From contig CALHGE010000005.1 in assembly GCA_938029725.1 (NCBI GenBank), positions 62,001-126,000 of the forward strand: a stretch of DNA of 64,000 bases. Direction: 5' to 3'. The notes under the pieces were generated by a model. The model worked only from the letters and a program-made list of their open reading frames with translations. It was not told the origin of the DNA and ran no database searches. The stretch is from an uncultured Flavobacteriaceae bacterium (GTDB lineage Bacteria > Bacteroidota > Bacteroidia > Flavobacteriales > Flavobacteriaceae). This document shows, in pieces, positions 15,184 through 25,105 of the stretch. Each line of letters starts with the position of its first letter. The first letter of the stretch is position 1. Made by a program: the position numbers and the translations under genes.

Positions 15184-15214
15184 TTTGTATATCTTAAATT
15201 TGAAATTATATTTG
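15184..15214 (+). promoter_or_regulatory. Consensus Bacteroidota promoter driving tRNA-Phe
   Basis: TTTG at 15184-15187, a spacer of exactly 19 nt, then TATATTTG at 15207-15214 match the Bacteroidota -33/-7 consensus perfectly. The tRNA begins 18 nt after the -7 box, as expected for a short 5' leader. Confidence 0.8.
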
Positions 15215-15232
15215 CAGCCCCTTAGAGGGTAT

Positions 15233-15305
15233 GGTGCCTTAGCTCAGTTGGTAGAGCAATGGACTGAAAATCCATGTGTCCCTGGTTCGATTCCTGGAGG
15301 CACCA
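15233..15305 (+). tRNA. tRNA-Phe (GAA)
   Basis: A 73-nt cloverleaf. The acceptor arms GGTGCCT and AGGCACC pair fully, the D-arm is GCTC/GAGC, and the anticodon stem ATGGA/TCCAT encloses loop CTGAAAA with anticodon GAA at 15266-15268. The T-loop is TTCGATT. The middle pair of the T-stem reads T opposite T (CCTGG on both sides), an internal mismatch. CCA is not encoded: the discriminator A is followed by CGA, so the 3' end would be added post-transcriptionally. It is flanked by a strong promoter and a terminator, so it is a single-gene transcript. Confidence 0.95.
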
Positions 15306-15311
15306 CGACAG

Positions 15312-15336
15312 ATCCCCGCAAATGCGGGGATTTTTT
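15312..15336 (+). terminator. Rho-independent terminator after tRNA-Phe
   Basis: The stem ATCCCCGC / GCGGGGAT with a short AAAT loop is followed by a T-run. It lies 7 nt after the tRNA and 20 nt before the start of the nucleoside-hydrolase gene. Confidence 0.9.
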
Positions 15337-15355
15337 GTTTTTAATTTCTTCCGTA

Positions 15356-16282
15356 ATGAAAGATTTCTTAAAGTCTTTGCTTTTGTATTTCATGGCCTCT
15401 ATTCTATTCTTTGGGTGCGAAAAACCCAAAGACAATAAAATTTCGATACTAATCGATGCCGACACCGCCAATGAAGTTGATGATCTTTATGCACTTGTGT
15501 ACGCGATAAATGAACCTAAATTCGATATTGTTGGTATTACTTCCGCCCAATTTCATACCTCACCCTTGGCAACCGACTCAACTGCTTTAGAGAGTCAAAA
15601 AATCAATGAAGCTATTTTAATGTTGATGAACAGAACAGACATTCCACTTGCCATTGGAAGTAATATGCCATTAACCTCTATAAATCAACCAGCAGAATCG
15701 CAAGCCGCTAATTTTATTATATCTGAAGCCCATAAAGCATCTGAGAGAAAAAAATTACAACTTGTCATTTTAGGCTCTTGCACAAATGTTGCATCGGCCC
15801 TATTAAAAGACCCAAAAATTATTTCAAAAATTCAGATAAGTTATCTAGGCTTTTGGCATAACCCGAAAACCAATGTGTTTAATAAAAAGGAGTTTAACTC
15901 TGGTAACGATACGCTAGCGGTAGAAGTTTTACTTAACACAAAAGGTTTAGATTTTACCGTTATGACAGCCACAACAAGTCAGCATTTGATTTTTAACAAA
16001 AGTGATGTCGATACACATTTGAAAGGGAAAAGTAGCATCGCTGATTATTTGGTGACACGATGGGAAACCTACGAGCGATGGTGGACAAAAGAGGACCCTG
16101 CAAAAAAAGAATGGATTATGTGGGATGTTGCCCTATTGGAGGCCTTGGCACATCCGGAGTGGGCAACAAAGAAAAAATACACTACTCCCCCTGAAAACAC
16201 AGAAAGAAATATCGATATTTATACCGACATACGCGTTCAAAAAATGATGCTAGGTTTTTGGCAAAATATAGATACGCTTTAA
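15356..16282 (+). CDS. Nucleoside hydrolase-like lipoprotein
   Basis: The start at 15356 is chosen because the frame upstream runs through the tRNA and its terminator. From here a lipoprotein signal is visible (lipid Cys21 after ILFFG). The 308-residue product has the inosine/uridine-preferring hydrolase metal motif in a spaced form, DADTANEVDD (34-43), followed by VGITSAQFH. Family enzymes hydrolyse N-ribosidic bonds of nucleosides to base plus ribose. The lipid anchor places it in the periplasm or outer membrane. It heads a compact run with a DinB-like protein, a sugar-kinase-like protein and an ADP-ribosylglycohydrolase. The substrate is unknown. Confidence 0.85.
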   Translation: MKDFLKSLLLYFMASILFFGCEKPKDNKISILIDADTANEVDDLYALVYAINEPKFDIVGITSAQFHTSPLATDSTALESQKINEAILMLMNRTDIPLAIGSNMPLTSINQPAESQAANFIISEAHKASERKKLQLVILGSCTNVASALLKDPKIISKIQISYLGFWHNPKTNVFNKKEFNSGNDTLAVEVLLNTKGLDFTVMTATTSQHLIFNKSDVDTHLKGKSSIADYLVTRWETYERWWTKEDPAKKEWIMWDVALLEALAHPEWATKKKYTTPPENTERNIDIYTDIRVQKMMLGFWQNIDTL

Positions 16283-16292
16283 ATTTTTCACA

Positions 16293-16739
16293 ATGCCTCT
16301 CGAAACCCTAAGAAAACTCTTTAAAAGAGATCTTGAAAAACTAAAATTCGAAATTTCAAGTTATCAACACGAAGACAAAATATGGATTACTGATAAAAAC
16401 ATTAGTAATTGCTCAGGCAACCTGTGCTTACATCTTATTGGAAACCTTAAAGCATTTATTGGTAATGAATTGGGGCAAATAGCATATGTACGACAAAGAG
16501 AACTTGAGTTTTCTCAAAAGGATATTCAAAAAAATACATTACTTCGAGAAATTGACAAAACCATCGAAATCATTGAAATTACCCTTAAAAACATGACCCC
16601 AATAGACTTAGAAAAGGAATATCCACAACTGGTATTTAAAGAAAAAATGACCACCGGATATTTTTTAACCCATTTAGCTACACATTTAAGCTACCACTTA
16701 GGTCAAATTAACTACCACCGACGATTATTAGATAACTAA
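16293..16739 (+). CDS. DinB/DUF1572-like four-helix protein
   Basis: 148 residues, all-helical, with the DUF1572/DinB layout. A first helix is followed by LCLHLIGNLKAFIGN (His in helix 2) and a late GYFLTHLATHLSYHLGQINYH block. The His residues of these helices form the metal site in DinB-like proteins. DinB-fold proteins include mycothiol- or bacillithiol-dependent thiol transferases and isomerases, but many members have no known activity. It sits 10 bp after the nucleoside hydrolase and 9 bp before the kinase. No signal peptide is seen, so it is cytoplasmic. Confidence 0.75.
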   Translation: MPLETLRKLFKRDLEKLKFEISSYQHEDKIWITDKNISNCSGNLCLHLIGNLKAFIGNELGQIAYVRQRELEFSQKDIQKNTLLREIDKTIEIIEITLKNMTPIDLEKEYPQLVFKEKMTTGYFLTHLATHLSYHLGQINYHRRLLDN

Positions 16740-16748
16740 AACGATATT

Positions 16749-17720
16749 GTGAATTACTTTGATATTAAAACACCTGTTGATCAGTTACAAGAATACTTGG
16801 TTTCAAACCAATGGATAAAAGCTGAAGATCAAGTTTTATTTGTCGATAAACCTGGAGAGGGCAACATGAATGTGGTGCTACGTATCAAGACAGATACCCG
16901 CTCTTTTATTCTAAAACAATCTCGCCCATTTGTTCAAAAATACCAAGAAATTGAAGCGCCTTTAGACCGTATAGCTGTTGAACATCAATTTTACCAAGCG
17001 ATTCAAAAAGAAGTTCTTAGTAAAAACCTACCCGCCATTTTGGGGTATGACGCTACTGAACATCTTCTGATTTTGGAAGATTTAGGTGATTGTCAAGACC
17101 TGACCTCCTTGTATTCTTCAAGAAAAATTGCAAAAAATACTTTAGAGCAATTGACCTCAATTCTTAGCTCAATTCATAAGAGCAAGGTGCCCAAGAGTTT
17201 TCCTGACAATATGGCGATGCGTCAACTGAATCACCAACATATTTTTGTTTTACCCTTTCTTGAAACTAACGGCTTTGAATTAAATGATATACAAGAAGGG
17301 CTTCAAGAACTTTCTATGCCATTCAAGCAAGATACTGCTCTTAAAGCGGTTATAAACGACGTTGGAAACACCTATTTATCTTCCGGAAATACGCTTATAC
17401 ATGGCGATTATTATCCCGGAAGTTGGATGACCAAAGCGAAAAACATCTACGTCATCGATCCAGAATTTGGTTTTGTGGGTTTTGCAGAATTTGATTTGGG
17501 CGTAATGGCCGCGCACATTATCATGGCGACTGCAGATGAATCTTATCTTAATTCTATATTTAGTTATTATACAGAAACAGCAGACAAAAAATTAATGATC
17601 CAAGTTGCGGGTATTGAAATTATACGACGCATAATCGGAATTGCACAACTGCCTCTAGAAAGAGCTCTCACAGAAAAGAAGTATCTTTTAGAACTTGCTC
17701 GAAAAATGATACTATCATGA
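16749..17720 (+). CDS. Methylthioribose-kinase-like phosphotransferase
   Basis: 323 residues with a GTG start; no nearby ATG fits. The aminoglycoside-phosphotransferase fold is clear, and the closest match by eye is 5-methylthioribose kinase. Shared features are GEGNMNVVLRI followed by FILKQSRPFV in the N-lobe, the catalytic LIHGDYYPGSWM and the metal-binding VIDPEFGFVGFAEFDLG. MtnK phosphorylates C1 of a 5-substituted 5-deoxyribose. Neighbours acting on nucleosides and ADP-ribose fit a ribose-type substrate, but no other methionine-salvage gene is present. The stop overlaps the next gene by 4 bp (ATGA). Substrate assignment is inference. Confidence 0.75.
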   Translation: MNYFDIKTPVDQLQEYLVSNQWIKAEDQVLFVDKPGEGNMNVVLRIKTDTRSFILKQSRPFVQKYQEIEAPLDRIAVEHQFYQAIQKEVLSKNLPAILGYDATEHLLILEDLGDCQDLTSLYSSRKIAKNTLEQLTSILSSIHKSKVPKSFPDNMAMRQLNHQHIFVLPFLETNGFELNDIQEGLQELSMPFKQDTALKAVINDVGNTYLSSGNTLIHGDYYPGSWMTKAKNIYVIDPEFGFVGFAEFDLGVMAAHIIMATADESYLNSIFSYYTETADKKLMIQVAGIEIIRRIIGIAQLPLERALTEKKYLLELARKMILS

Positions 17721-19000
17721 GTCGTATTCTTTTATGTATCGGATGTTTCGCATTGCTAGTTTCGTCTTGCAAACAAAACATGCCAACGCTTGATATTCCA
17801 TCGCCTACTAAAATCGCCTATGCCACCGATACACTTAGCCTATCAAAAGCAGAGAGATATGATAAAATTTTAGGTGCTTTGGTAGGTTCTGCCATTGGAG
17901 ATGCCATGGGTACTTCAACCGAAATGTGGCACCGAAAGGACATTCAACTAAAATACGGTTATATCACAGGGCTTACACCAGCGGTTCGAGAACAATCTCC
18001 AGAAGGTACTTGGGGCCATAATCTGAATGCAGGAGCAACTACGGATGATACGCGTTGGAAATTTTTAATGGCAAACTATTTGAGTTCTCAAAAAGGAAAG
18101 CTTAACGCTGAAAATTTTGCCGTCTTTATTACCGATTATTACGCCGCTCTGACCAAAGGTTTGGAAGGGCTAGCAATCAGCACTGACCCCGACATCCTCG
18201 ATAAACAAATTCAAAAAATTTACTGGGTCAAAGAATGGGCTCGGGTTGCTTTGGCCTATCAACAAGGAAGTGTGCCTTATCAAAAAGCGCAAAATAGATT
18301 TTATGGGGGCGAAATGTCTTGTGCTGGTCAATTATACACCCCAATGTTTGGCTTGTTGGCAAATACACCAGAAGAAGCCTATACTATTGCCTATGAACAT
18401 ACCTTATTTGATTTAGGTTATGCTAAAGATATTTCAGCCTTGGTTGCTGCCATGACACAAATGGCGATGCGCACACAACATATGGATTCTATCTTGAACA
18501 CTGTTACTTTTATCGACCCCTATGATTACCAAAACAGCCGTTTAATAGGTCGAATTTCGTATACCACTGCCGAAGCTTCTAGAAAAGGCATATTAGCAAT
18601 CAAGAAAAGAGTTTTGATTGATTCACTTATCACCAAAGATTCAATTCGCTATAAAATACCCGAAAATTTTCAGGGCTCACAAAAAGATTGGGTTCGCCAA
18701 GAAATGGCATACCAAATGCTCGAGAAGGATGAAAAGGCTATCGCTTTCCACGCAGGTGAAATTTGGCAAATTCTAATTACTAGCCTTGAATTTGGGGAGG
18801 GTGACTTTGAAAAAACCCTCCAATTTATTGTCAATTACGGTCGCGACAATGATACGGTTGCAGCCGTCGCCGGAATGATTTTAGGTGCTAAACATGGGTA
18901 TTCAAACCTACCCCTAAGCCTCAAAGAAGAAGTTCTTGAAGTTAGCAAGACCCAAATGGGTATTGACCTTCAAGAAATGGCAAAAATACTTGCTGAATAA
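17717..19000 (+). CDS. ADP-ribosylglycohydrolase-family lipoprotein
   Basis: 427 residues with a lipoprotein signal (LLVSSC, lipid Cys18). The ARH fold is marked by GALVGSAIGDAMG (~53-65), the metal motif TTDDT (108-112) and the C-terminal RDNDTVAAVAGMILGA. ARH enzymes hydrolyse ADP-ribosyl bonds or O-acetyl-ADP-ribose with two metal ions. The surface or periplasmic location is unusual for an ARH and points to scavenging of nucleotide-derived ribosides rather than removal of protein modifications (inference). It is translationally coupled to the kinase-like gene by a 4-bp overlap and is the last gene of the cassette. Confidence 0.85.
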   Translation: MSRILLCIGCFALLVSSCKQNMPTLDIPSPTKIAYATDTLSLSKAERYDKILGALVGSAIGDAMGTSTEMWHRKDIQLKYGYITGLTPAVREQSPEGTWGHNLNAGATTDDTRWKFLMANYLSSQKGKLNAENFAVFITDYYAALTKGLEGLAISTDPDILDKQIQKIYWVKEWARVALAYQQGSVPYQKAQNRFYGGEMSCAGQLYTPMFGLLANTPEEAYTIAYEHTLFDLGYAKDISALVAAMTQMAMRTQHMDSILNTVTFIDPYDYQNSRLIGRISYTTAEASRKGILAIKKRVLIDSLITKDSIRYKIPENFQGSQKDWVRQEMAYQMLEKDEKAIAFHAGEIWQILITSLEFGEGDFEKTLQFIVNYGRDNDTVAAVAGMILGAKHGYSNLPLSLKEEVLEVSKTQMGIDLQEMAKILAE

Positions 19001-19256: not shown

Positions 19257-19745
19257 ATGCGATTTTTAATCTTTTTTATTCTGTTTCTTGTTTTTGCCGC
19301 TTTGGTATTTGGTCAAAAAAAAATAGACAAAACCTTGAAGCTACTCAACAATGAAAGTGTACCCTATATAAATGTTGATGAGCTAAAATCTTCTGAAAAT
19401 ATCATTCTTTTAGACACGCGAAAAAAGGTTGAATTTACGGTGAGTCATCTAAAAAATGCCATTTGGGTAGGTTATGAAGATTTTGAGGAAGAAAAAATTA
19501 GGTCACAAATTGAAGATAAAAATACGCCAATTGTAGTGTATTGCTCGATAGGTGTGCGTTCTGAAGATATTGGCGAGAAGCTTCAAAAAGCTGGCTATAC
19601 AAATGTCAAAAACCTTTATGGGGGTATTTTTAAATGGAAAAATCAAGGGAATAGCGTCTATAATACTACTGCAGAAACCGATAGTGTACATGCCTACAAC
19701 AAAATTTGGGGCAAGCTTCTCGAAAAAGGCGTTAAAGTGTATTAA
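19257..19745 (+). CDS. Exported rhodanese-like sulfurtransferase
   Basis: 162 residues with an N-terminal signal or anchor (hydrophobic residues 2-19 ending VFGQ). A single rhodanese domain follows (~36-135) with LLDTRKKVEF and the active-site loop CSIGVRS, catalytic Cys96. Rhodaneses carry a persulfide or bind thiophilic oxyanions. It opens the arsenosugar-type cluster and is separated from the TIGR04282 gene by 34 bp. A role in thiol or sulfur chemistry of arsenic is plausible but unproven; single-domain rhodaneses are promiscuous. Confidence 0.85.
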   Translation: MRFLIFFILFLVFAALVFGQKKIDKTLKLLNNESVPYINVDELKSSENIILLDTRKKVEFTVSHLKNAIWVGYEDFEEEKIRSQIEDKNTPIVVYCSIGVRSEDIGEKLQKAGYTNVKNLYGGIFKWKNQGNSVYNTTAETDSVHAYNKIWGKLLEKGVKVY

Positions 19746-19779
19746 CCCGCTATCAAGCTTCAATTTATAAATTTCAGAT

Positions 19780-20457
19780 ATGGGCATACTCCTTTCCACC
19801 GAAAAAAAGCAAGAGGAGGCAACGGTAAATTATCATACCATCGCTTCAAAGAATTTACTGCTTATTTTTACAAGGAATCCTGAATTAGGAAAATGCAAAA
19901 CCCGCCTAGCGGCAAGGGTAGGAGATGAAAGTGCTTTGAAAATTTACAAGTTTTTATTAAATCATACCGCTGAATTGACTCAAGATGTAAATGCTGCCAA
20001 ACAGGTTTGGTATTCCGAAGAAATTTGGAAGGACGACATTTGGGATAATTCCTATTTCAATAAAAGAGTACAACATGGAGCTGATTTAGGCATCCGTATG
20101 GCCAATGCTTTTCAAGAAGGATTTTCTTCTAACTTTGAGCGTATTGTTGTTATTGGAAGTGATATGCATGACCTCTCTAAAACCGACATTGATAATGCCT
20201 TTGAAGTTCTCCAAACAAAAGATTTTGTCATCGGGCCTGCAGAAGATGGGGGTTACTATTTATTGGGAATGACTACTTTTAATTCGGCTGTATTCCAAAA
20301 CAAAGCTTGGGGCTCAGAAACCGTTTTACAAGACACCCTAAACAATTTAAAAAACAAAAATCTACAAGTTCTGGAGATGAGAAACGATATAGATCTTTAT
20401 GAAGATATCGCAACAACAGCTGCTTTCCAGCCTTTTCTAAAACATATGAAGAAATGA
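19780..20457 (+). CDS. TIGR04282-type (DUF2064) arsenosugar-associated transferase
   Basis: 225 residues with a nucleotide-diphospho-sugar-transferase fold. Typical motifs are LLIFTRNPELGKCKTRLA near the start, VVIGSDMHDLS, and PAEDGGYYLLGM toward the end. The family is called 'rSAM-associated transferase 1' and more recently arsenosugar-biosynthesis glycosyltransferase. It usually occurs near an ArsM methyltransferase and radical-SAM ArsS. Here ArsM is two genes downstream. The 3' end overlaps the nucleoside phosphorylase start by 4 bp (ATGA). The activated sugar or glycerol donor is not known to me. Confidence 0.85.
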   Translation: MGILLSTEKKQEEATVNYHTIASKNLLLIFTRNPELGKCKTRLAARVGDESALKIYKFLLNHTAELTQDVNAAKQVWYSEEIWKDDIWDNSYFNKRVQHGADLGIRMANAFQEGFSSNFERIVVIGSDMHDLSKTDIDNAFEVLQTKDFVIGPAEDGGYYLLGMTTFNSAVFQNKAWGSETVLQDTLNNLKNKNLQVLEMRNDIDLYEDIATTAAFQPFLKHMKK

Positions 20458-21269
20458 CACAAAAACAATTAGACGAATCAACTGCTTATTTAAGAGGCAA
20501 AGGTTTTGATGCTCCAGAAATCGGAATCGTACTAGGTACAGGTTTAGGAAAATTGGTTGATGAAATTGAAAACACAATCGAAGCACATTACAATCATATT
20601 CCATTTTTTCCATTAGCAACCGTAGAATTTCATGCCGGCAAGCTAATCTACGGAACCCTCGAAGGAAAAAAAGTTGTGGTCATGCAAGGGCGTTTTCATT
20701 TATACGAAGGCTATGACCTGATGGATGTTACCTATCCTATTCGCGTAATGCACCAATTGGGTATTCAAAAATTATTCATCTCTAATGCCGCGGGAGCCAT
20801 TAATCTCGATTATAAAAAAGGAGATATGATGTTGATTGACGATCATATTAATTTACAAGGCAGTTCTCCATTAGCCTTCAAAAACGTAGCGCAATTCGGA
20901 GAACGTTTTGTAGATATGGCCGCGCCCTATGATGTTGAAATGGGTAAAAAACTAATAGCGATAGCGGAGAGAGAAAACATCTCTCTTAAAGAAGGCGTAT
21001 ACGCTTCTGTAGTCGGCCCGCAATTAGAAACAAGGGCAGAATACCGAATGTTAAAGATCCTTGGTGCGGATGCCGTTGGAATGAGTACGGTACCAGAAGT
21101 AATTGTTGCTAATCATTTACGACTACCCATTATAGCAGTGTCAGTTTTAACTGATGAATGTGATCCTGACAACTTACAAACCGTTAATATTCAAGAAATT
21201 ATCGAAATTGCCGGAAATACAGAGCCAAAAATGGTGACGTTGTTTAGAGAATTAATTAAAGAAATTTAG
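20454..21269 (+). CDS. Purine-nucleoside phosphorylase (trimeric PNP/MTAP family)
   Basis: 271 residues with GTGLG (phosphate loop), GRFHLYEGYDL, SNAAGAINL and GMSTVPEVIVA, typical of the trimeric PNP/MTAP family. It cleaves purine nucleosides with phosphate to base and ribose-1-phosphate. At the base-recognition position Asp234 (VLTDECDP) replaces the Asn of 6-oxopurine PNPs; the adenine-specific MTAP has Asp there. Its place between the TIGR04282 transferase and ArsM suggests it removes adenine from an arsenic-containing 5'-deoxyadenosine (inference). General purine salvage is the alternative. Confidence 0.9.
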   Translation: MTQKQLDESTAYLRGKGFDAPEIGIVLGTGLGKLVDEIENTIEAHYNHIPFFPLATVEFHAGKLIYGTLEGKKVVVMQGRFHLYEGYDLMDVTYPIRVMHQLGIQKLFISNAAGAINLDYKKGDMMLIDDHINLQGSSPLAFKNVAQFGERFVDMAAPYDVEMGKKLIAIAERENISLKEGVYASVVGPQLETRAEYRMLKILGADAVGMSTVPEVIVANHLRLPIIAVSVLTDECDPDNLQTVNIQEIIEIAGNTEPKMVTLFRELIKEI

Positions 21270-21279
21270 AACTAGAAGC

Positions 21280-22245
21280 ATGAGTTATTTAGAAGCAACA
21301 AACGATTTGTACAAAGAAGCAGCTTTAACACCTGATGTTGGTCTTTGCTGCACAACAAACCCCATTTGGCAATTCCCCGGACTTTCAATTCCGACCATAA
21401 TGCAGGAAATGAATTATGGCTGTGGTAGCACGGTCTCTGCGCAAGACTTAATCAATAACCCTAAAGTACTTTATGTAGGTGTTGGTGGAGGAATGGAACT
21501 ATTACAATTCTCTTACTTCTCAAGACAAAAAGGAGGCGTTACAGGTGTTGATGTAGTTGATGAAATGCTGGAAGCTTCCAAAAAGAACTTTAAGATTGCC
21601 GAGGAAGAAAATGATTGGTTTAAAAGTGAGTATGTAAACCTAGTTAAGGGTGACGCTTTGAATCTTCCCGTGGAAGATGAAAGTATTGATGTTGCCGCAC
21701 AAAACTGTCTTTTCAACATTTTCAAGATAGATGATTTAAAGAAAGCAGTAGCAGAAATGTATCGTGTTCTAAAGCCTCATGGAAGACTTGTAATGAGTGA
21801 TCCAACTTGTGAACAACCTATGAATAATGACTTGCGAAATGATGATCGCTTAAGAGCACTATGCTTGAGCGGAAGTATTCCTATCGCAGATTATGTAAAA
21901 GTCTTAACCGATGCTGGTTTTGGTACTATAGAAATTCGCGCTAGAAAATCGTATCGCGTTTTATCACCAAACCACTATCCGACGGATGAATTGATTTTTA
22001 TCGAATCTATAGAGATTGCCGCTATCAAAGACCCAATGCCAGAAGACGGACCTTGTATGTTTACTGGAAAAACAGCTATATACTACGGTGATGAAGATTA
22101 TTTTGATGACAAAGCAGGGCATGTGCTTATGCTAAATCAACCCTTAGCTGTTTGCGATAAGACCGCAGCGGCTTTAGCGAAGGCAAATGATGAAATTCAT
22201 ATCAGCGAAAGTACATGGCATTATAATGGTGGCGGATGCTGCTAG
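21280..22245 (+). CDS. arsM: ArsM-type arsenite methyltransferase of arsenosugar clusters
   Basis: 321 residues: a class I SAM methyltransferase with SAM loop VLYVGVGGGMELL (63-75). Cysteines stand at the arsenite-binding positions of ArsM: C23/C24 in GLCCTTN, C48 in NYGCGST and C195 in LCLSGSIP. An extra Cys pair ends the protein (C320-C321, after GGG). ArsM methylates As(III) to mono- and dimethylarsenicals, which are the precursors of arsenosugars. The surrounding TIGR04282/TIGR04283 and PNP genes support the arsenosugar subtype rather than volatilising detoxification. A strong terminator follows. Confidence 0.88.
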   Translation: MSYLEATNDLYKEAALTPDVGLCCTTNPIWQFPGLSIPTIMQEMNYGCGSTVSAQDLINNPKVLYVGVGGGMELLQFSYFSRQKGGVTGVDVVDEMLEASKKNFKIAEEENDWFKSEYVNLVKGDALNLPVEDESIDVAAQNCLFNIFKIDDLKKAVAEMYRVLKPHGRLVMSDPTCEQPMNNDLRNDDRLRALCLSGSIPIADYVKVLTDAGFGTIEIRARKSYRVLSPNHYPTDELIFIESIEIAAIKDPMPEDGPCMFTGKTAIYYGDEDYFDDKAGHVLMLNQPLAVCDKTAAALAKANDEIHISESTWHYNGGGCC

Positions 22246-22268
22246 CTAATTTTTGATATTCTTATTCC

Positions 22269-22300
22269 AAAGGCCTGCTAATAAAAAAGCAGGCCTTTTA
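22269..22300 (+). terminator. Rho-independent terminator after arsM
   Basis: A perfect 11-bp stem AAAGGCCTGCT (22269-22279) / AGCAGGCCTTT (22288-22298) with an 8-nt A-rich loop and a T-run. It separates the 19.2-22.2 kb transcript from the phosphate-transporter gene. Confidence 0.9.
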
Positions 22301-22376
22301 CTTTTTAAATAAAGTTCGCAGTAAGCAAAGTGCATCTATTACGTCAAAAAGTAAGAATGAATTATTACTGCAAAAT

Positions 22377-23483
22377 ATGAGCATCATCTTTATCTTTCTT
22401 TTTGTTGCCGCCTGTTTTTTAGCCTATAGCAATGGTGCAAACGATAATTTCAAAGGCGTTGCTACACTTTTCGGAAGTGGTACGACCAATTATAAAAACG
22501 CAATTAACTGGGCAACAGCAACCACATTTGCTGGCTCGGTAACCGCACTATTTTTAGCAAAAGAACTCGTTAAAAATTTCTCAGGAAAAGGCTTGGTTCC
22601 AGATGAGTTAATTTTAAGTCCGAATTTTGCTATTTCTATTGCGCTAGGAGCAGCAATCACAGTTTACTTAGCTACCAGAATCGGAATGCCCATATCTACA
22701 ACACATAGTTTAGTAGGAGCGCTTTTTGGCGCTGGCGTTATGGCGGTTGGTAGTGACTTCAATTTCATCAAACTCGGAAAAACATTTTTAATGCCGCTTA
22801 TAGTGAGCCCTTTAATAGCAGCTGTTTTAAGTTTGATTGCCTATCTTATTTTTAGATACTTCAGAGCGTTAATGGGTATCTCCAAAAATGATACTATTTA
22901 CATTCCAAAAGCAGAGGTATCAAATACGAATCACATGCGCATGGTTTCAACTACACCAATGAATGTTGAGATAGAAAACCAACACATCGAAACTTATAGC
23001 GGACAAGTATTGGGTATTACTACCCAAAAAATATTAGACACACTTCATTATATTAGCGCCGGAGTGGTAAGTTTCGCAAGAGGACTAAATGATACTCCTA
23101 AAATTGTTGGTCTTTTACTCATTATAAACACTTTAGATATCAGGTGGGGACTGATTACAGTAGCTATTGTAATGGCGGCTGGCGGTTTATTGAACTCTAA
23201 AAAAGTAGGAGTTACGATGAGTCAAAAAATTACTCCTATGAATTCAGGGCAAGGGTTTACGGCAAATATGATTACAGGTTTATTAGTTACAACTGCGAGT
23301 ATTCATGGGCTACCTGTTTCTACAACACACGTTTCGGTAGGCTCTATTTTCGGAATTGGCACCGTGACCAAAAAATCAGACCTAAAAATGGTTTCTAAAA
23401 TAATATTGTCATGGGTCTTAACCTTGCCCATTGCGGCCTTAACGAGTGCATTTTTTTTTAAATTGTTTCAGATGTTTTTATAA
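22377..23483 (+). CDS. PiT-family inorganic phosphate transporter
   Basis: 368 residues, polytopic, with the two inverted PiT/PHO-4 repeats. The first has SNGANDNFKGVA (~20-30) and PISTTHSLVGAL; the second has RGLNDTPKIVG and PVSTTHVSVGSIFG. PiT carriers import metal-phosphate with protons or sodium and also admit arsenate. Its position between arsM and the TIGR04283 gene hints that it serves arsenate/phosphate traffic of this pathway, but a plain phosphate role is equally allowed. A terminator upstream suggests separate transcription. Only 16 bp separate it from the DUF547 gene. Confidence 0.9.
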   Translation: MSIIFIFLFVAACFLAYSNGANDNFKGVATLFGSGTTNYKNAINWATATTFAGSVTALFLAKELVKNFSGKGLVPDELILSPNFAISIALGAAITVYLATRIGMPISTTHSLVGALFGAGVMAVGSDFNFIKLGKTFLMPLIVSPLIAAVLSLIAYLIFRYFRALMGISKNDTIYIPKAEVSNTNHMRMVSTTPMNVEIENQHIETYSGQVLGITTQKILDTLHYISAGVVSFARGLNDTPKIVGLLLIINTLDIRWGLITVAIVMAAGGLLNSKKVGVTMSQKITPMNSGQGFTANMITGLLVTTASIHGLPVSTTHVSVGSIFGIGTVTKKSDLKMVSKIILSWVLTLPIAALTSAFFFKLFQMFL

Positions 23484-23499
23484 AACTAAACTAGCAAGA

Positions 23500-24414
23500 A
23501 TGAATTTAGCATTGTTTACACTTATCGGTTTACTTCCGTTAGCATGTGTTAATCACAAGGAAGTTGCGAAAAATGATACTTCTATTGAGAAGGACAAATT
23601 GGAGTTTGTTTCACCTGTTCAGGAAAATCCGCTAATTACAAGCTCTGAAGACACGATAGCACAAATAGAAGAGATTGATACCAGAGGTATTGAAGTTGTT
23701 GTGCAAGAAAAAGCTAAACTTATAAAAGAGGTATCAATAAAAAAGAAAACACCAGAAAACCTTCTATTGCCTGAGCATTCCCCTTGGAGTATTTTATTGA
23801 TTAAATATGTCGATGATAAAGGCGATGTTGATTATAGGGCTTTTCAAAATGACAGCGTGGCTCTAGGTGAATATCTGAATCATTTAGAGAAAAACAGTCC
23901 TAAAAAAGACTGGCCTAAAAATGAAAAATTAGCCTATTATATTAATCTTTATAATGCCGCGACGGTAAAACTCATCCTTGATAATTACCCAACTACTAGT
24001 ATTAGAAATATTAAAAACCCTTGGGGTATGGACTGGGTGAAAACAGGTGATGGAGTTCTTTCCTTAGGAGATATTGAGCATAAGATACTTCGAAAAATGA
24101 ATGAACCCCGTATACATTTTGCAATCAATTGTGCCTCATTTTCCTGTCCGAAGTTATTAAACAAAGCTTTTACAGCTGCCGAGATAGAAATACAGTTACA
24201 TGAAGCAACTCTTGATTTCGTAAATGATAAAACCAGAAATATTATTTCAAAAGAAGAAATGCAGTTATCGAATATTTTCAAATGGTACAAAAAAGACTTT
24301 ACCGAAAATGGTTCGTTAACAGATTATATAAAAACCTATACTACCATCGAAATCAATAGCGACACCGATATTGACTATCTCAAATATGACTGGAATTTGA
24401 ATGAAACGAAATAG
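23500..24414 (+). CDS. DUF547 lipoprotein, copy 1
   Basis: Start at 23500 rather than 23446, because MNLALFTLIGLLPLAC gives a clear lipobox (lipid Cys16) and removes overlap with the transporter. The 304-residue product has a ~100-residue low-complexity, Glu/Lys-rich linker followed by the DUF547 domain. Conserved blocks are LAYYINLYNAATVKLIL, DIEHKILR, HFAINCASFSCPKL and FKWYKKDF. The domain has an invariant His/Cys set suggestive of a cysteine-based hydrolase or transpeptidase, but the reaction is unknown. It overlaps the TIGR04283 gene by 14 bp. A second DUF547 protein lies at 30.5 kb. Confidence 0.8.
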   Translation: MNLALFTLIGLLPLACVNHKEVAKNDTSIEKDKLEFVSPVQENPLITSSEDTIAQIEEIDTRGIEVVVQEKAKLIKEVSIKKKTPENLLLPEHSPWSILLIKYVDDKGDVDYRAFQNDSVALGEYLNHLEKNSPKKDWPKNEKLAYYINLYNAATVKLILDNYPTTSIRNIKNPWGMDWVKTGDGVLSLGDIEHKILRKMNEPRIHFAINCASFSCPKLLNKAFTAAEIEIQLHEATLDFVNDKTRNIISKEEMQLSNIFKWYKKDFTENGSLTDYIKTYTTIEINSDTDIDYLKYDWNLNETK

Positions 24415-25105
24415 CCCAAAAATCAGTATTATAATTCCAGTTCTCAACGAAGAAACTGCTATCTCTAAGATATTAGATTCTTTGATGGAGAATAGTTCCG
24501 CTAAAAATATCAAAGAAGTACTTGTAATTGATGGTGGTAGCGTAGATAACACAAGAGCACTCGCTTTGAATCATAAGGTGACCCTAATTCTTTCAAAAAA
24601 GGGCCGCGCCAGACAAATGAATCTTGGTGCAAAAAATGCTACAGGTGAAATTCTTTATTTTATTCATGTAGACACGCTTCCTCCTAAGGGCTTTGACAAA
24701 ACCATTATAGAAGCTGTTTTAAGTAAAAATGAAGTAGGTTGTTTTCAAATGAAATTTGATAGTGACAGCCGATTTTTAAGATTTTTTGCATGGTTTACAC
24801 GCATCAATATTAAACTTTGCCGTGGCGGAGATCAATCACTTTTTATCACTAAAAGTCTCTTTGAAAAATCAGGAGGCTTTGATGAAAACTATATCGTTTA
24901 TGAAGACAATGAGTTTATCGGACGTTTATATGAAATGGTTCCGTTTAAAATACTGCCCCGTCACGTAAAAACTTCAGCTCGCAGATATGAACAAGGCAAT
25001 AAAGTTGCACTACAATATCACTTTGGAGTAATTCATCTAAAAAATTACATGGGTGCAGGACCAGAGAAGTTATATGATTACTACAAGCGAAAAATTGCTA
25101 TTTAG
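24401..25105 (+). CDS. TIGR04283-type arsenosugar-associated glycosyltransferase
   Basis: 234 residues, GT-A family 2 fold: ISIIIPVLNEE at the start, VIDGGSVDNT, the DxD-like FIHVDTLPP, and GGDQSLFI further on. The family is 'rSAM-associated transferase 2', now described as an arsenosugar-biosynthesis glycosyltransferase. It is overlapped by the upstream DUF547 gene, so the two are translationally coupled. It is expected to transfer a sugar or sugar-like group in the cytoplasm; acceptor and donor are not established. The 3' end is convergent with the amidase gene, overlapping by 4 bp. Confidence 0.85.
   Translation: MKRNSPKISIIIPVLNEETAISKILDSLMENSSAKNIKEVLVIDGGSVDNTRALALNHKVTLILSKKGRARQMNLGAKNATGEILYFIHVDTLPPKGFDKTIIEAVLSKNEVGCFQMKFDSDSRFLRFFAWFTRINIKLCRGGDQSLFITKSLFEKSGGFDENYIVYEDNEFIGRLYEMVPFKILPRHVKTSARRYEQGNKVALQYHFGVIHLKNYMGAGPEKLYDYYKRKIAI

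Follow-up and report, generated by a model that had tools for sequence, protein, structure and literature searches.

How does a bacterium come to carry an arsenosugar-type gene cluster without arsS, the gene for the radical S-adenosylmethionine (SAM) enzyme of the pathway? The question is raised by seven genes, all on the + strand, at positions 19257–25105 of a 64,000-nucleotide stretch of DNA (the window) from an uncultured Flavobacteriaceae bacterium. They encode a rhodanese-domain protein, a TIGR04282 protein, a purine nucleoside phosphorylase (PNP), the arsenite methyltransferase ArsM, a PiT-family transporter, a DUF547 protein and a TIGR04283 glycosyltransferase. The original prediction, made from the letters alone, held that the window encodes no radical-SAM protein, and we likewise found no CxxxCxxC, the radical-SAM motif, in the window's non-overlapping open reading frames (ORFs) of at least 80 amino acids. 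It left two ways out: ArsS lies elsewhere, or another enzyme provides the arsenic–carbon bond. Our analysis points to the former. The window very probably holds one locus (locus A) of a two-locus Flavobacteriaceae arsenosugar set, whose second locus (locus B), with arsS, is missing from the draft assembly and not from the biology of the organism.

The whole-genome search with the ArsS profile TIGR04167 that the original prediction had proposed came out blank in the organism's own assembly but positive in its relatives. In the window's genome (3.80 Mb, 81 contigs, 92.15% complete) no match exceeded the cut-off of 300 bits. The best, 33 bits at G000:C9, was rejected as ArsS; matches with E ≤ 0.001 occurred in 14 of 14 control genomes, one of which was over the cut-off. 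Among same-genus relatives, ArsS exceeded the cut-off in 11 of 13, split in two pieces in G006; none was found in G002, which is 57% complete, and only a remnant in G004. All eight same-genus relatives with arsM over the cut-off also have arsS. We infer the arsS of this organism from these relatives, and its absence from the assembly is most likely explained by a split cluster together with an assembly gap.

To place arsS, we fetched and read 13 stretches from the same-genus relatives, with names assigned by eye for genes outside those scanned with profiles. In 10 of the 11 ArsS-bearing relatives arsS adjoins GT9, DUF4254, two more small genes, purD and an epimerase gene, often with a TetR gene; the exception is G012, in which arsS stands at another place, away from the GT9/purD block. 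Locus B comprises TIGR04169 (AhpD-like; 198.1 bits beside ArsS in L015, cut-off 120), arsS, often a second TIGR04282-like gene, a TetR regulator and GT9, with purD adjacent in most of these relatives. On the other side of arsS, the longer stretches (for example, L014, L015, L016 and L021) hold ferredoxin-reductase-like, TPR-type and bactofilin-like genes, and the gene for F0 subunit a lies on that side in L021 (PF00119) and, by eye, in L015. The neighbourhood of arsM, for its part, is that of the window wherever the contig is long enough (G001, G003, G007, G008, G010 and G013). Since arsM and arsS are on different contigs in G003, G007, G008, G010 and G013 and 661 kb apart in G001, a separate arsS is common in the genus.

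In the window's genome the neighbours of arsS could not be found either. Strong matches to purD and GT9 were obtained in 12 of 13 relatives (the miss being G002), and the best in the window's genome were 20.7 and 21.5 bits, respectively. Four further neighbours were looked for in the window's genome alone: DUF4254, the TPR protein and F0 subunit a had no match, and the epimerase had paralogue-like matches only (best 69 bits, 28%). Proteins encoded in 52.5 kb of G007 were compared with 81 contig starts and 57 contig ends of the assembly, which revealed one border of the probable gap. Contig C75 starts inside a transporter gene (residues 336–406 of 410) that in G007 lies 3′ of the atp operon; it goes on with proteins p40–p42 of G007, and C77 continues. 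Those contig starts and ends hold nothing of the G007 stretch that runs from the first genes read, by way of purD, arsS and the atp operon, up to the transporter gene, bar weak paralogue-like matches, and TIGR04169 (p25 of G007) had no match among them, the only parts compared. TIGR04030, a different peroxidase family, had no match over the cut-off in any of 14 genomes, a result without bearing on TIGR04169. Flavobacteriaceae are a largely aerobic family, and a member without purD and F0 subunit a would be surprising; the missing block of purD, F0 subunit a and arsS is therefore most likely an assembly gap, on top of the split cluster. With this neighbourhood not found in the assembly and ArsS present in the relatives, the notion that the absence of arsS is biologically meaningful finds no support.

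We extended the comparison to loci of ArsM relatives from the genome collection, keeping the best 80 of at least 554, with at most 10 kb of flanking DNA fetched on either side. Of these 80 stretches, 79 also contain PNP, 78 TIGR04282, 62 TIGR04283, 61 rhodanese and 7 PiT; given the first two counts, the cluster arrangement exceeds chance. ArsS falls within the fetched stretch in 22 of the 80 loci, from Winogradskyella, Aquimarina, Tenacibaculum and relatives. The usual order of these linked loci is TIGR04169, ArsS, rhodanese, TIGR04282, PNP, ArsM, optional PiT, DUF547 and TIGR04283, with some loci differing in order or missing members. For 49 of the 58 loci without linked ArsS the whole genome was searched, and all 49 have ArsS over the cut-off outside the fetched stretch (with the match cut short by a contig end in G029 and G052). 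L064, L082, L093, L104 and L121 were outside this test, and L057, L059, L063 and L077 are contigs already examined in G007, G013, G003 and G008, genomes that all have ArsS. The same-genus relatives and these 49 genomes together favour the option that ArsS lies elsewhere and give no backing to another enzyme for the arsenic–carbon bond. An ArsM tree of 85 rows (midpoint root; bootstrap not fully settled) places the 22 linked loci, L121 and ArsM copies found at locus B of G011 and G005 on one side and the remaining 60 rows, including the window, on the other, with 100/100 on the dividing branch. This separation of the linked loci from the rest fits a single event that split the cluster.

Profile searches confirmed all seven genes at their predicted places, with scores above the curated cut-offs wherever a specific model exists, so that the identities first read from the sequence and the link to arsenosugars hold. 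The rhodanese-domain protein (19257–19745), whose N-terminus looks signal-like by eye, matches NF045521 (‘rhoda_near_glyco’; 205.2 bits, cut-off 145) and PF00581. The TIGR04282 protein (19780–20457; 212.3 bits, cut-off 134) also matches DUF2064, and the trimeric-type PNP (20454–21269) matches NF006054 (342.6 bits, cut-off 218) and TIGR01700 (299.9 bits, cut-off 293.35). ArsM (21280–22245) is of the arsenosugar type (NF038099; 563.7 bits, cut-off 400); it aligns with solved arsenic methyltransferases and keeps the cysteines in YGCGST, NC and CLxG, which we take to be arsenic-binding. The PiT-family transporter (22377–23483; PF01384, 224.8 bits, cut-off 33.7), for inorganic phosphate or perhaps arsenate, is an optional member; it is followed by the DUF547 protein (23500–24414; PF04784, 89.7 bits, cut-off 27) and the TIGR04283 family 2 glycosyltransferase (24401–25105; 224.5 bits, cut-off 182; PF00535). 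For the DUF547 gene the start is most likely the ATG at 23500 and not the GTG at 23446 of the mechanical ORF, to judge from the sequence. Both predicted overlaps are present, a 4-base ATGA between the TIGR04282 and PNP genes (20454–20457) and 14 bases between the DUF547 and TIGR04283 genes (24401–24414). A terminator-like hairpin on the + strand (22269–22298; 11 pairs, then a T-rich tail) separates arsM from the PiT gene, so the cluster may form two transcription units; terminator-like matches in the region are not above those in shuffles (4 versus 4.6), and a promoter scan was uninformative (15 sites versus 20.1 in shuffles).

Compared with the known arsenosugar set (NF038099, TIGR04167, TIGR04169, TIGR04282 and TIGR04283), the window shares ArsM, TIGR04282 and TIGR04283, and its relatives hold ArsS and TIGR04169. 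What differs is that in this lineage the set is split over two loci, that this assembly lacks the arsS locus, and that PNP, rhodanese, DUF547 and the optional PiT belong to the window-type cluster. In all probability the cluster belongs to this known gene set, and the split and the assembly gap explain the apparent puzzle of ArsS. Arsinothricin (arsQML) and bisenarsan likewise come from bacterial organoarsenical pathways, but their products differ, and the arsinothricin ArsM model matches the window's ArsM with 89.2 bits, far below its cut-off of 500. In the literature, covered as titles and beginnings of abstracts, we found nothing pointing to this cluster in Flavobacteriaceae; subscription papers were mostly outside that coverage, so this is no proof that the cluster is unpublished.

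The original prediction had grouped TIGR04282 with TIGR04283 as transferases adding the aglycone or sugar. Besides DUF2064, the TIGR04282 protein has weak matches to CofC models (F420_cofC, 32 bits, and CofC). Its predicted structure has a pLDDT (predicted local distance difference test) score of 90.0, and in a fold search of the PDB ranks 1–20 were nucleotidyltransferases or a putative nucleotide-sugar enzyme, the first glycosyltransferase being at rank 21. Ahead of it stand 3cgx, 3-phosphoglycerate guanylyltransferase and other nucleotidyltransferases, counted as such by title except for Rv2983 and Rv0371c, which are counted by their known function. The guanylyltransferase (7p97) and 2i5e and 6bwg, presumably CofC/FbiD-type proteins, resemble TIGR04282 in fold, with template-modelling (TM) scores of 0.57–0.66 by query length, but share only 14–17% identity with it. 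From its sequence and its mainly nucleotidyltransferase fold neighbours, the TIGR04282 protein looks like a nucleotidyltransferase rather than the glycosyltransferase of its family name, and we propose that it acts as an NTP:arsenoribose-1-phosphate nucleotidyltransferase (NTP, nucleoside triphosphate). TIGR04283 keeps its place as a glycosyltransferase.

The main papers on the ArsM/ArsS pathway are Cheng 2021, Xue 2017 and Xue 2019. ArsM reportedly yields dimethylarsenic (Xue 2017, by its title), and ArsS is said to carry out the radical-SAM adenosylation of arsenic (Cheng 2021); we know of no enzymes assigned to the steps after ArsS. Residue 234 of the PNP, Asp in 80 of 80 aligned rows, is presumably the base-specificity position, in the column of human PNP Asn243. 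Human PNP takes adenosine analogues after Glu201Gln and Asn243Asp (PMC2799393), and Asp at this position would fit an adenine nucleoside. A radical-SAM enzyme that adenosylates arsenic is described in PMC12159101. In the pathway that we propose, ArsM would methylate arsenite to dimethylarsenic, and ArsS would join this to the 5′-deoxyadenosyl group of SAM, both steps as in the literature. PNP would then phosphorolyse the arsenic nucleoside to adenine and 5-deoxy-5-dimethylarsinoyl-ribose-1-phosphate, which retains the adenine release foreseen in the original prediction but would no longer make it the sole outcome. Such a sugar-1-phosphate is a substrate that a TIGR04282 nucleotidyltransferase could activate; the CofC-like enzyme would convert it with an NTP to a nucleoside diphosphate (NDP)-sugar, from which TIGR04283, as the proposed arsenoribosyl transferase, would move the arsenoribose to an acceptor. 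Read in this way, the gene order suggests a concrete order of reactions: phosphorolysis, nucleotidylation and glycosyl transfer.

The same-genus relatives also reveal losses and replacements. Locus A keeps PNP, TIGR04282 and TIGR04283 without an intact arsM in 6 of 12 relatives (G004, G005, G006, G009, G011 and G012; G002 was not assessable and is left out), and the retained genes may therefore have a role beyond arsenic. In G006, G009 and G012 arsS is present and no arsM exceeds the cut-off anywhere in the genome; G009 and G012 are 99% complete. Both genes have decayed in G004, where about the first 49 codons of arsM are left with TIGR04283 next (L034, G004:C250 1498–1644) and the last 40 codons of arsS run, by eye, into the beginning of the second TIGR04282-like gene (L024, G004:C305 1021–1137). 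G011 and G005 carry ArsM copies beside arsS (L012:10145–11113 and L015:7550–8518) with 81–82% identity to the window's ArsM. In the tree these copies group together within the linked-cluster lineage, which suggests horizontal transfer replacing a lost native arsM; as they group together, they may represent one transfer. Close relatives that have naturally lost arsM or arsS make for ready comparisons.

In G012, G009 and G011 the genes for SusC, SusD, a sodium/solute symporter, a metallophosphoesterase, TIGR04169 and ArsS share one orientation, and G006 shows part of this arrangement (the four loci being L017, L018, L022 and L012); in L175, outside the genus set, the phosphoesterase is there too. 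All three relatives that have arsS but no arsM belong to the four genomes with this operon, only a hint that the operon and the loss of arsM are associated (0.033 with G003 left out, as its contig ends beside TIGR04169; 0.024 when it was wrongly counted among the 11 genomes with arsS; relatedness is ignored). A speculative and rather unlikely extension is that PNP, TIGR04282 and TIGR04283 constitute a module of general use, which would take 5′-modified deoxynucleosides by way of sugar-1-phosphate and NDP-sugar to a glycoside, and to which ArsM and ArsS would be interchangeable front ends; in that case, some arsM-less relatives might feed ArsS with methylated arsenic imported through the SusC–SusD–symporter–phosphoesterase operon joined to arsS.

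Could arsS truly have been lost here, leaving ArsM to methylate arsenic for detoxification only and the other cluster genes idle or otherwise used? The assembly lacks an ArsS match over the cut-off, and gene loss has precedent in the genus, of both arsM and arsS in G004 and of arsM in G006, G009 and G012. Yet no tested genome keeps arsM without arsS (8 of 8 in the genus and 49 of 49 others have arsS, the five loci named above being outside the test), and the block missing here includes purD and, by its placement in G007, F0 subunit a, genes whose loss would hardly be expected in this family. We consider true loss improbable. That a different enzyme forms the third arsenic–carbon bond is very unlikely indeed. 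A precedent might be seen in bisenarsan, whose cluster is described in PMC12159101 as without a SAM-dependent enzyme, the arsenic–carbon bond being proposed to form without such enzymes; but profile scans recognised no candidate gene for such a bond in the window's cluster, ArsS is present in all 49 searched genomes carrying a cluster of this kind, and the gap already accounts for its apparent absence. For ‘missing’ pathway genes in draft genomes, synteny should be checked before new chemistry is proposed.

A real but minor possibility, compatible with the assembly gap, is that rhodanese, TIGR04282, PNP and TIGR04283 form a locus independent of arsenic (one that salvages nucleosides for a glycan, for example), with arsM as an insertion. 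On this reading TIGR04282 and TIGR04283 owe their arsenosugar names to association only, and the six relatives without an intact arsM beside these genes, one of them also without arsS, are as expected. But arsS is kept in all six except G004, and the 22 linked loci of the other lineage carry arsS and these genes within one stretch. The reading of the window as half of a split arsenosugar set has several points against it as well. G004, without arsM or arsS, keeps rhodanese, PNP, TIGR04282 and TIGR04283 open, which counters a purely arsenic role, and with arsM lost in three further relatives, possession of the pair varies within the genus. The PNP may be a general salvage enzyme: 5 of 6 genomes searched gave a match, and each of these gave just one, which also favours an arsenic-independent locus. 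Its Asp at the presumed specificity position is found in other bacterial PNPs too, and all 80 rows retain the Glu at residue 192, which we take to be the one that also had to be changed in the human enzyme, so the argument for adenine nucleosides is weak. No sequence of the missing stretch was seen, and its arsS is deduced from relatives; the searches for DUF4254, TPR, epimerase and F0 subunit a had no positive control; and the second border of the gap was not found among the 81 starts and 57 ends. Moreover, p37–p39 of G007 were not found and p40 directly follows the border gene on C75, so gene order there is not identical to that of G007.

Two observations concern the DNA upstream of the cluster. 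Several same-genus relatives share, upstream of their own clusters and in synteny, the genes at window positions 16293–19000, which encode DinB-like, methylthioribose-kinase-like/APH and ADP-ribosylglycohydrolase proteins. The mechanical ORF at 15185–16282 starts across a tRNA-Phe gene (15233–15306), so the true start of its protein lies further in.

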